Below, in pieces: positions 16,681 through 19,706 of a stretch of DNA of 64,000 nt (position 1 is the first letter of the stretch; each line of letters starts with the position of its first letter). The translations under genes were made by a program, and so were the position numbers. Origin of the DNA: Archangium sp. (lineage in GTDB: Bacteria > Myxococcota > Myxococcia > Myxococcales > Myxococcaceae); assembly GCA_022843845.1 (NCBI GenBank), contig JALHMW010000004.1, positions 186,001 to 250,000 on the forward strand, in the 5' to 3' direction. Below the pieces are notes generated by a model that saw only the letters and a program-made list of their open reading frames with translations, was not told where the DNA came from and made no database searches.

Positions 16681-17205
16681 ATGCCGCGCGCCTATTCGAT
16701 GCGCGGCGTGCAGGGCGCCGCCGATCGCGCCGTGCGCCTCGCGACCGACTTCCTCGAGCTGCAGGCTCCCAGGAGCCTCGTGCACGACGTGCAGGAGGAC
16801 CCACGCTTCCAGCACCGCGGCGTCGATCTGCTCTGGGACAAGGGCGACGGGCACGTGCTCGGCGTCGAGGTGAAGGGCGATCGGCAGGGCCGCCGCCGCG
16901 GGAACTACTTCTTCGAGCTGATCAGCAACGCCGAGAAGGACTCACCGGGCTGCTTCCTCTACTCGACGGCCGATCTCCTCGTGTACGTCTTCCTCGACGC
17001 GCGTGAGGTGCACTGCCTCGAGCTGAAAGCGCTGCGCGACTGGTTCATTCCGAAGACGAAGGAATACCCGCTCAAATCGACCCGTACGAAGACGGGCGCG
17101 GCGCTCTACACGACGGTCGGGGCGATCGTGCCGCTGCGCGACGTGAAGGCCGGGGTGCCCGCGGCGTTGACGGTGCACCGGTTCGCGCTGACGACGCCCG
17201 GGTGA
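16681..17205 (+). CDS. Possible PD-(D/E)XK-fold nuclease-like protein
   Basis: 174 residues. The segment HRGVDLLWDKGDGHVLGVEV, followed by Lys, has the spacing of a PD-(D/E)XK nuclease core (Asp about residue 49, then Glu-x-Lys near residue 68). It is followed by an alpha helix with ELISNAEKDSPG and a strand LYSTADLLVYVFLD. This could be a small restriction-like or repair nuclease, but the assignment rests on the motif alone. It follows the DUF4920 gene closely. No partner methylase is visible. Confidence 0.6.
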   Translation: MPRAYSMRGVQGAADRAVRLATDFLELQAPRSLVHDVQEDPRFQHRGVDLLWDKGDGHVLGVEVKGDRQGRRRGNYFFELISNAEKDSPGCFLYSTADLLVYVFLDAREVHCLELKALRDWFIPKTKEYPLKSTRTKTGAALYTTVGAIVPLRDVKAGVPAALTVHRFALTTPG

Positions 17206-17438
17206 GGCGTGACGCGGTCTGCACGAAGTCGTCCCTTCAACGACAGCGTCTGCCTCGTGGCCCAGGCGAGAACCCCGTCATGCGTTGTCGTCCCACAGCT
17301 CGTCGGTGATCTCCTCGGGCGGCCGCGTGTCGAGGGCCGTGCTCGACGGCCGCGCCGCTCCGTCAACGACTCACCCGGCCGCGCTGCAAGCTCGTTCCGG
17401 AGCCGCTCTGCTTCCGGACCCTGGAGTTTGACCGACAT
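17206..17438 (-). pseudogene. Remnant of a vapBC-type toxin-antitoxin pair
   Basis: The start is well formed: GAGGAAAG precedes ATG at 17438, and the first 27 residues (SVKLQGPEAERLRNELAARP, then GESLTE) look like a VapB/Psk-type antitoxin N-terminus. The frame is then lost. In another frame LDTRPPEEITDELWDDNA followed by TGA (stop near 17281) resembles a VapB C-terminus, so an internal deletion is likely. Downstream, LAWATRQTLSLKG and, after a one-base shift, DDFVQT resemble the C-terminus of a VapC PIN toxin. The toxin's N-terminal and catalytic parts are absent. It begins 9 bases after the stop of the polymerase-like gene. The identity is inferred from short motifs. Confidence 0.5.
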
Positions 17439-17447
17439 GTCTTTCCT

Positions 17448-19706
17448 CTACGGTTCGCCTTCTACCCTGCGACCGAGCATCACCTTCGCGACCCGATCAC
17501 GAACGGGGTCGACGTCGTGGTTCACCGCAGCCTGAATCAGAAACGGCCCCGGGCGTTTGAGCGCCTCGACCTGCGCAAGCCATCCCGTCGCTCGCTCCAG
17601 CCGGGGGCGTGGAGGATCGAAGCCGAGCTGGCGCGTCTGCGCGATGGCCTCCCGCCCAATGGGGACATGGACGACGACTGAGCCACCCGGGGCCAGCCCG
17701 AGCGCCTCGAACGCACGCACGCTCAGCGCGATGGCATTCGTGTCCCACAGCTCGACGTCGACCCCGAGCACGGCTGGCGCTTCGCCCGCGCATTCGTCGA
17801 CGACGAGCAGCGGGTGCGTCGCGCACAACGCCTGGACCGACTCGAGCGCGCGTGGGTCTCGGCTTTCGACGAGGCGCCTCGCCTGTTTGATGGTGGTGAC
17901 GTGCCCGGCGATCTCGAGCAGCGAATAGATGAGCGGCTTGAACAGCTCGAGCGCCATCGAGCGCGGCAACAGCATGGTTCGATCGGCCAACGACGCGAGG
18001 GGAACGGCGCGGGCGAGGCCCGAGTAGTCGACCCGTTTGTGCCTCGTGGCAGCGAGCTTCCCCTTCGGCCCCGCGAAGAGATCGACGAGCGAGACCAGGG
18101 CGCGGCGGTTCGGGCCCGTGATGCGGGTGCGACCGTGGTTGTCGAGCACGGCGTCGAGGGCCTGCTGCAGCATGCGCGCTTCGTTGCGGATGATGAGTTC
18201 GGGCGCGTTCAGCTCGAGCAGTCGGCGAGTGCGGTTGTTGCGATTGATCAGCCTTCGATAGAGGTCGTTCAGGTCGCTCGTCGCGAAGCGCCCTCCTTCC
18301 AATGGCACCAGCGGCCGAAGGTCTGCAGGCAGCACGGGCCAGCGTGTGAAACACCACTGCTCCGGCCTGCGACGCGTGCGCTTCAGCGCGGCGGCGAGGC
18401 CTTCTGCGCCAGGTGGCGGGCGATCGAGATCGACTGCCGCCAGCGCTGCCTGAATCGCGAGGCCGCCGGTATCCCCATGCTGCGCAGGCTCGTTGCCCGC
18501 GAGGGTCGCTTCTCCCAACAGCACCCGCTCGAACTCCGCCGGCGCCATGCCCAGGAGCGTCGCCGCGACACCTCGGGCCCAGGGGTGAAGGAGCGGCGCC
18601 GCGAGGGCGACGTGGCCCAATCTGGTGAATCGCTCGGGCGAAGGAATGTCCCCGAAGATCTCGGTACAGAACAGCCCACCAGGCTCGGGCCGGAGCGTGC
18701 GGTAGTTCAGCGTCTCGGGCTTCACCACGCGGCCAGGCGCGAAGGTGTCGATGGACGAGTCGGTCGACAGCCGCAGCTCGACCTCGGCTTCGGTGAAGTC
18801 GGCCTCGAAGCCCATCGACAGCAGCAGCGCCTCGAGCGTCTTCGTCGCGTGCGGCATCGAGGGCGGACGCAGCGCCTCGCCCTTCACGAGATCTTCGAAG
18901 AGCGCGACCCGACCCGCCACGTCGTCGGACTTGTGGGTCAGCATTTCGTGCACGACGTGCGTCGCGCCGCGATCGAGCAGCGAGTCGATGACGGCCACCG
19001 ACACGTGCTGACCACCGAACGACGCGCGTCCACCGAGCGGCTGCTGGGTCACGATCGAGTAGGGGCCGATGGAGCGTGCGTGGCAGACCTCCGCCGCAGC
19101 TGGACCGAGCCGATGGACGAGCCCCGTCGCTACGGCGCCTGGCCACAGCCCATCGACCTCGAGCGACGAATCGATCGCGCCCACCACGGCCGGTGCACCG
19201 CCTTCGAACGAAACGACATCGCCGGGCTCCAGCGGGTACTCGGAGCTGACGACGACGGTGAGCTGCTCTGGCGCTCCCTTCGTTTCGGGCGGCGTGCGCT
19301 CGATGGCCTCGACGCGCCCGTACAGACCCGGTGGACCACGAAGCGAGCCGTCGCGGCCCTGGGGCACTCCGAACGCGGCGTCGATGCCTGCCTCGTCGTC
19401 AGCGAGCTCGCCCAACGGGCGCGCGAGGCGTCCGACGAGCAACAGCCCCGGCACGACGCGAGTCCCCACTGGCGCGCACGAATCGGCGTCGAGGTGATCA
19501 GCCTCGCCGGGCTTCAGCATCGGCAGATCGTTCGTCAGGCGGTCGCCCGGGTACAGCGGCAGCGTGAGCCGGCTCGTCACCGAGTACGTCAGCAACGCTG
19601 CGGCGGCCGGCGACAGGCGCACCTCGGGGCCGAGGTGGGCTTTCAGGGTCAGCGGCCGGGAGCTCGTGGCGACGAGGAGTGGAGTCGGCGTGTGTTTCGA
19701 GCTCAC
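17448..19706 (-). CDS. Catalytically degenerate RNA polymerase beta-beta' mini-fusion
   Basis: 752 residues from the GTG at 19706; the open frame upstream has no better start. Residues about 83-305 match the C-terminal part of RpoB: VVPGLLLVGRL, then HARSIGPYSIVTQQPLGG, FGGQ and HEMLTHKSDDVAGR. Residues about 327-690 match the N-terminal half of RpoC: KPETLNYRTLRPEPGGLFC, LGHVALAAPL, LPADLRPLVPLEGGRFATSD, INRNNR, IIRNEARMLQQALDAVLDN, KRVDYSG and MALELFKP. Both catalytic signatures are gone: beta GDKMAGRHGNKG reads GDVVSFEGGAPA (162-173), and the beta' NADFDGD before MAVHVP reads roughly LGLAPGGSV before VVHVP (669-682). The beta' zinc-finger loop, bridge helix and trigger loop are absent. The clamp helices that bind sigma in true RpoC are kept (about 462-523). 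Not an active polymerase; perhaps a sigma or regulator binder. Confidence 0.88.
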   Translation of the reverse strand: MSSKHTPTPLLVATSSRPLTLKAHLGPEVRLSPAAAALLTYSVTSRLTLPLYPGDRLTNDLPMLKPGEADHLDADSCAPVGTRVVPGLLLVGRLARPLGELADDEAGIDAAFGVPQGRDGSLRGPPGLYGRVEAIERTPPETKGAPEQLTVVVSSEYPLEPGDVVSFEGGAPAVVGAIDSSLEVDGLWPGAVATGLVHRLGPAAAEVCHARSIGPYSIVTQQPLGGRASFGGQHVSVAVIDSLLDRGATHVVHEMLTHKSDDVAGRVALFEDLVKGEALRPPSMPHATKTLEALLLSMGFEADFTEAEVELRLSTDSSIDTFAPGRVVKPETLNYRTLRPEPGGLFCTEIFGDIPSPERFTRLGHVALAAPLLHPWARGVAATLLGMAPAEFERVLLGEATLAGNEPAQHGDTGGLAIQAALAAVDLDRPPPGAEGLAAALKRTRRRPEQWCFTRWPVLPADLRPLVPLEGGRFATSDLNDLYRRLINRNNRTRRLLELNAPELIIRNEARMLQQALDAVLDNHGRTRITGPNRRALVSLVDLFAGPKGKLAATRHKRVDYSGLARAVPLASLADRTMLLPRSMALELFKPLIYSLLEIAGHVTTIKQARRLVESRDPRALESVQALCATHPLLVVDECAGEAPAVLGVDVELWDTNAIALSVRAFEALGLAPGGSVVVHVPIGREAIAQTRQLGFDPPRPRLERATGWLAQVEALKRPGPFLIQAAVNHDVDPVRDRVAKVMLGRRVEGEP

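Follow-up and report, generated by a model that had tools for sequence, protein, structure and literature searches.

A shrunken, catalytically dead RNA polymerase copy in some myxobacteria and its possible role as a factor decoy

The fused gene and its parts

The window analyzed here is a 64,000-nt stretch of Archangium sp. (assembly GCA_022843845.1, contig JALHMW010000004.1, positions 186,001–250,000, forward strand). Its gene of interest opens with a GTG at 19706 and runs for 752 codons to a stop at 17448 (Table 1), the same intact frame that the first-pass annotation had reported. The start is provisional because a TTG and an ATG lie upstream in frame and the frame of the nearest relative, L036, has TTG as its first in-frame start codon. 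The gene is divergent to clpS-clpA and convergent to a gene for a 174-aa protein without a Pfam match (window 16681–17205), which is 89% identical in the relative G093.

Homology of the predicted protein to RpoB and RpoC of RNA polymerase (RNAP) is unambiguous and far above chance. It matches the Pfam families RNA_pol_Rpb1_1 (E = 4.5e-31) and Rpb2_6 (E = 5.1e-9), RpoC chains in the PDB (E = 5.4e-69), and the NCBIfam models for rpoC (TIGR02386, 242 bits) and rpoB (TIGR02013, 106 bits), far under the whole-protein cut-offs of 963.5 and 801, respectively. Besides dead copies, the genome (G000, 85.8% complete) holds one full-length RpoA, RpoB and RpoC each.

Table 1 Features of the window gene and related loci.
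Feature	Position	Strand	Remark
Dead RNAP fusion, family 1, 752 aa	17448..19706	-	GTG start; upstream TTG 19742 or ATG 19769 possible
beta flap-like region, residues 26-188	19143..19631	-	flap-tip helix degenerate (4/14)
beta catalytic lysine loop remnant, residues 162-175	19182..19223	-	GDKMAGRHGNKG replaced
beta C-terminal segment, residues 199-307	18786..19112	-	own RpoB about 1278-1380
beta' zipper segment, residues 323-352	18651..18740	-	KPETLNYRTLRPEPGGLFC; followed by the zinc finger deletion
beta' lid and clamp helices, residues 464-523	18138..18317	-	R275, R278, E295, Q300 and A302 equivalents retained
beta' VDYSG-to-barrel region, residues 557-694	17625..18038	-	
Lost catalytic Asp triad site, residues 670-676	17679..17699	-	
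C-terminal tail, residues 708-746	17469..17585	-	possibly a beta' C-terminal clamp piece (suggestive)
Decayed VapB remnant	17281..17438	-	directly downstream of the fusion gene; intact VapBC at this place in relative G095
Dead paralogue in G000, contig C5, 790 aa	L035:8964-11336	-	

A profile of three close relatives was aligned onto the RpoB and RpoC of G000. It covered RpoB residues 871–954 (flap) and 1278–1380 (C-terminus) and RpoC residues 18–66, 79–144 and 240–496. Read from this mapping, the layout of the window protein is a beta flap region, the beta C-terminus, the beta' zipper, lid and clamp helices, a dead beta' barrel, and a short tail. The earlier description of RpoB C-terminal motifs joined to RpoC N-terminal motifs is right about the beta C-terminus; it missed that the N-terminal third also holds the flap region.

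The beta lysine motif GDKMAGRHGNKG is changed to GDVVSFEGGAPAVV, the Asp-triad site reads GLAPGGSVVVHVP with none of its three Asp, and the zinc-finger segment is deleted. The matches of the family profile to RpoC stop at about residue 496 and leave the stretch up to about 1325 empty, with a weak match of the C-terminal tail beyond it, so the bridge helix and the trigger loop are missing. Identity to the own RpoC is 13/14 in the lid and 34/46 in the clamp helices, the sigma2-docking element, where the equivalents of R275 and E295 are both present; the A302 equivalent is retained in 4 of 6 dead copies. The first-pass annotation had called the protein a catalytically dead beta-beta' fusion with both motifs replaced, with the zinc-finger loop, bridge helix and trigger loop gone, and with well-kept clamp helices, and the mapping and homology searches agree with it on each of these points.

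The tail might correspond to the beta' C-terminus, which is suggestive only. Its best-domain scores are 1.6–3.6 bits; against one RpoB and 300 shuffles, the three true RpoCs came out 1st, 3rd and 4th. In the fold alignment of the Enhygromyxa model the E. coli-numbered rows stop at beta' 1357–1359 and the other rows listed stop near the C-terminal part of the chain, but for the window model only some rows extend that far. The AlphaFold model of the window protein is weak (pLDDT 64.4, pTM 0.44), and both models were made from 6-row alignments; AF2 may also recall RNAP.

A discrete clade in Myxococcota

Homologs were sought in 512 genomes, comprising 195 of the phylum around G000 (including 96 of its family and 145 of its order) and 317 of the class of Enhygromyxa. 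Many of these genomes are not complete, and a search scores only the top candidates of its first look, so absence from a genome is not proof. With the tail profile, nine genes of the first set (195 genomes) scored at least 140 bits and the next match scored 31 bits, a clean separation. The second set (317) gave five genes or fragments at 129–159 bits, one at 75 bits and one fragment at 34 bits, with the others among the matches listed at about 32 bits or lower. The clade comprises 14 intact genes in 11 of the 512 Myxococcota genomes (the window gene, L035, L036, L037, L038, L039, L041, L069, L083, L089, L109, L110, L111 and L122), plus three decayed copies in G010, G307 and G350, for which assembly error is possible. 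A profile search had been suggested along with the first-pass annotation, and it does recover a discrete family without an intact Asp triad.

Bacterial RpoB and RpoC span about 2800 aa in two chains, whereas the clade proteins have 722–929 aa with beta and beta' in a single chain in 13 of 14 cases; the exception, L069 of G093, was counted as intact though it consists of two ORFs. The NADFDGD triad is intact in none of the 14 (a single Asp aligns in L037 and another in L122), the catalytic lysines of beta (E. coli K1065 and K1073) are absent from all, and the bridge helix and trigger loop are likewise missing. By alignment, the window protein is a catalytically dead RNAP fragment-fusion that belongs to this discrete clade.

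Coverage beyond Myxococcota consisted of a scan of 84,980 named species genomes and of phage, plasmid and viral collections. The scan confirmed six loci among 41 pattern matches, including those in Enhygromyxa salina SWB007 (L089) and in MAGs labelled Archangiaceae, Myxococcaceae, Archangium, Myxococcales and Deltaproteobacteria; it is not exhaustive because its query was one short peptide pattern. With the window protein as tblastn query, none of 17 matching phage records and none of 65 matching plasmid records cover 80% of the query, and the 17 phage rows and the best 20 of the 65 plasmid rows begin at query residue 188 or beyond, like true RpoB and RpoC. The tail profile found no relatives in viral contigs. 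A phage or plasmid origin of the clade was rejected, as these searches with the window protein and the tail profile found no member. In five genomes (G273, G332, G348, G365 and G434) the RpoB profile gave four to six matches each where two are usual, possibly from duplicate rpoB, split contigs or contamination.

The dN/dS ratio across four pairs is 0.24–0.54, above 0.5 in two pairs, and is higher than for the flanking clpA (0.05) and kinase (0.12) genes within the same pair. Judged by these ratios, the clade is under purifying selection. Pseudogene features (dN/dS near 1, a disrupted frame) are absent from the window gene, and the intact clade together with the dN/dS values supports the earlier view of a retained pseudo-polymerase rather than decay.

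When the three window-family loci and five module-B loci were compared all against all, synteny appeared only among the window, L036 and L037 and between L035 and L038, besides one weak 28% match between neighbors of L039 and L040. The window and L036 share both flanks and L037 shares one; the remaining dead copies lie in differing surroundings. For the loci L069, L083, L089, L109, L110 and L111 the comparison was limited to inspection by eye.

Two docking modules and the catalytic elements

We divided the aligned columns into module A (zipper, lid and clamp helices; 85 columns), module B (flap tip and zinc domain; 59 columns) and a catalytic set C (lysine loop, switch 2 and barrel; 125 columns). 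The reference subunits were those of G000 for the window and module-B families, of G149 for L083, and of G302 for L089, L109, L110, L111 and L122, in four of which they are not the own subunits (Table 2).

Table 2 Identical columns in the docking modules and the catalytic set.
Protein	A (of 85)	B (of 59)	C (of 125)
True control, E. coli vs G000	78	52	109
True control, G302 vs G000	79	54	116
Window protein	63	13	33
Window orthologues (two)	66 and 64	10 and 13	36 and 31
Five module-B paralogues	14-19	48-52	23-30
L109 and L110	27 and 26	49 and 47	21 each
L083 (undivided)	52	47	35
L089 (undivided)	62	48	30
L111 (undivided)	61	47	27
L122 (G506)	15	5	29

True RNAPs conserve docking surfaces and catalytic elements alike (87–93%). 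Of the 14 dead copies, 13 retain 61–88% identity in one or both docking modules, with catalytic elements down to 17–29%. Fisher p-values go down to 4e-20 and are descriptive, given that the columns depend on one another and that the alignments had been seen before the modules were drawn up. Switch 2 is retained at 3–9 of 20 (13 genes). L122 is intact and keeps neither module.

By these identities most members keep one or both docking modules at near-RNAP level, and module B usually comes with an RpoA alpha-CTD, detected in 8 of the 10 genes with module B and absent from all three of the window family (L122 was outside the scan). L083, L089 and L111, from other lineages, hold both modules in one protein, and L111 is the most complete member with flap tip, zinc domain, zipper, lid, clamp helices and alpha-CTD in one chain. 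In each case seen, a gene with module A only is accompanied by a B-bearing gene in the same genome (3/3: G000, G093 and G095), and module B occurs without A in four genomes (G092, G009, G302 and G304). The losses fall in two blocks, one of zipper, lid and clamp helices and one of flap tip, zinc domain and alpha-CTD, and would provide a directly testable map of the RNAP surfaces that act as independent modules.

The second dead copy of G000, L035, has a pattern opposite to that of the window gene. Identity to the own subunits is 12/14 in its flap-tip helix and 38/45 in its zinc domain, its clamp helices are reduced to 26 aligned columns of 46, and lid and zipper are mostly gone. The C-terminus is an alpha-CTD of RpoA type (PF03118, 38.4 bits; cut-off 23.8). 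In the module-B family the joint between beta and beta' is the N-terminus of RpoC itself or a variant of it (MKDIF.FF-like). The simplest reading is that the dead copies descend from an rpoB-rpoC operon, probably by internal deletion followed by fusion.

At L069:8312-10584 (G093), a mini-rpoB and a mini-rpoC are two ORFs with an ATGA overlap, a possible pre-fusion snapshot, and AGAAGGAG stands directly upstream of the start of the second ORF. Frames of 2823–2874 aa were recorded at the rpoC matches of G002, G005, G010, G044, G045, G086, G087 and G091, where rpoB and rpoC may be one frame or fused; several of these genomes give about 1400 aa at rpoC elsewhere in the analysis.

Possible functions of the dead copies

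The shrunken, dead RNAP copy of some myxobacteria keeps mainly the docking surfaces for sigma and other factors and may be a natural decoy controlling factor access to the real enzyme. Since docking surfaces are kept and catalysis is dropped, such proteins should bind factors without transcribing. In RNAP the clamp helices hold sigma2 and the flap tip holds sigma4, according to PMC8321222 and PMC4642336; the latter has the clamp helices also bind NusG and the flap tip and alpha-CTD bind NusA. An isolated beta' clamp fragment reportedly enhances −10 ssDNA binding by a sigma fragment (PMC12000874).

Our tentatively preferred proposal is that the dead RNAP serves as a scaffold or decoy: via genuine RNAP surfaces it would bind sigma, perhaps also Nus factors, and so titrate them. 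The protein would fold like the RNAP clamp and flap. Module A would bind sigma region 2 in the manner of RNAP, and module B would bind sigma region 4 and/or NusA. Factors held off the true core would tune transcription, making the protein an RNAP-shaped anti-sigma or factor sponge. In the window lineage this job may be divided between the window gene (A) and the contig C5 paralogue (B and alpha-CTD). Sigma is not singled out as the partner because the same surfaces also bind NusG and NusA. Several findings count against titration: L122 keeps neither docking module, dN/dS lies above that of flanking genes, and patchy occurrence, three decayed copies and unconserved neighbors are unusual for a core regulator.

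Few known proteins are as conserved as RNAP subunits, and we know of no described bacterial pseudo-RNAP. The open-licence literature, with most subscription journals outside it, yielded no description of such a dead RNAP protein in the parts available. Rsd and AsiA are protein anti-sigma factors, and the proposed outcome, sigma kept off the core, would be like theirs; unlike with them, a fragment of RNAP itself, with genuine docking surfaces, would do the binding, and no homology is claimed. 6S RNA mimics promoter DNA and binds the holoenzyme. The dead copy would likewise titrate the transcription apparatus by mimicry, but it mimics RNAP and would bind the factors of RNAP. The isolated beta' clamp fragments of Young 2001 and 2004 cover the same clamp-helix region, which reportedly binds sigma away from the core in vitro; those were laboratory constructs, whereas the dead copies are natural genes with a dead barrel, a flap region and sometimes an alpha-CTD. 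Phage multisubunit RNAPs (PMC7481178) are, like the dead copies, beta/beta' homologs outside the host core enzyme. The phage enzymes are not known to have lost the catalytic motifs, which the dead copies lack. If the proposal is true, sigma and Nus factors would be under a new form of control, exerted by a family that has given up catalysis and kept the surfaces where factors dock. The copy in the named strain E. salina SWB007 should make experiments possible.

We favor titration of sigma, perhaps with Nus factors, over promoter occupancy, pure Nus-factor titration and a phage decoy, which are live rivals. A broader scenario seems unlikely, though worth stating: the half of RNAP that recognizes promoters and docks factors would have parted from the catalytic one and become a single chain of beta flap, beta C-terminus, beta' clamp and alpha-CTD, which works with sigma as a promoter-occupying repressor or a sigma reservoir, one lineage then splitting sigma2-side and sigma4/alpha-CTD-side docking between two genes. 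Rather unlikely is a dead holoenzyme, in which the sigma-loaded protein would sit on promoters by means of module A and module B/alpha-CTD and not transcribe, as a natural polymerase-shaped repressor. The full set of parts in the single chain of L111 would suit it, and module A is close to a beta' fragment (1–314) that, together with sigma, is reportedly sufficient for promoter melting; Young 2004 treats the minimal promoter-melting machinery. Against it, module B and the alpha-CTD are missing from the window protein, and among members the alpha-CTD positions R265 and K298, which we take to be DNA-binding, vary by eye.

Also rather unlikely is that the partners are NusG (at the clamp helices) and NusA (at the flap tip and alpha-CTD) rather than sigma. 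Against it, zipper and lid, which contact sigma and promoter DNA and are not known to contact NusG, are retained along with the clamp helices. The beta gate loop, also touched by NusG, presumably falls outside the retained beta segments as well. In favor of these partners, every alpha-CTD found belongs to a gene with a retained flap tip, and NusA-NTD contacts the flap-tip helix and NusA-AR2 the alpha-CTD (PMC4642336).

Very unlikely, in our judgment, is a decoy presenting attacked surfaces to phage-encoded RNAP-binding proteins or another RNAP-targeting agent. A decoy would have to mimic such surfaces, as the dead copies do, and patchy distribution, fast evolution, decayed copies and shifting genomic position suit a defence gene. 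However, PADLOC on 64 neighbor proteins gave no complete defence system among the best 25 of 53 matched models (matches not traced to each protein); those listed were kinase-type PD-T4-6, DndA/SspA-type, RtcR, mad6 and two weak SduA, the latter (DUF4263) matched by two of the 64 proteins. The Pfam scan of the same neighbors listed mixed, mostly housekeeping genes among 25 of 112 matched families. An operon or defence-island partner is unsupported by these scans and the all-against-all comparison. A decoy for switch-region antibiotics was rejected in view of the poor retention of switch 2, which we take to be the myxopyronin site. Least probable of all is a slowly decaying, functionless rpoBC duplicate, a reading that the three decayed copies, the loss of both modules in L122 and the two higher dN/dS pairs would fit and that the overall dN/dS range disfavors.

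Also against titration, no sigma or anti-sigma gene recurring beside the loci was seen by eye or among the best 25 of the 112 Pfam families; an ECF sigma factor-like gene was noted by eye at L109:15263-16180 (G302), at a distance of about 3 kb from that genome's dead copy. VapBC adjoins or lies within 4 kb of several loci (window 17281–17438; L036:10865-11517; L039:10340-11013; L041:4315-4979), and the window itself has a decayed VapB and almost nothing left of VapC. In a post hoc count over the 14 genes, PIN genes at a distance of up to 1 kb were expected 0.028 times and seen in two independent cases; for 4 kb, 0.113 were expected and three seen. By eye, a TamA-like gene lies near both L041 and L069.
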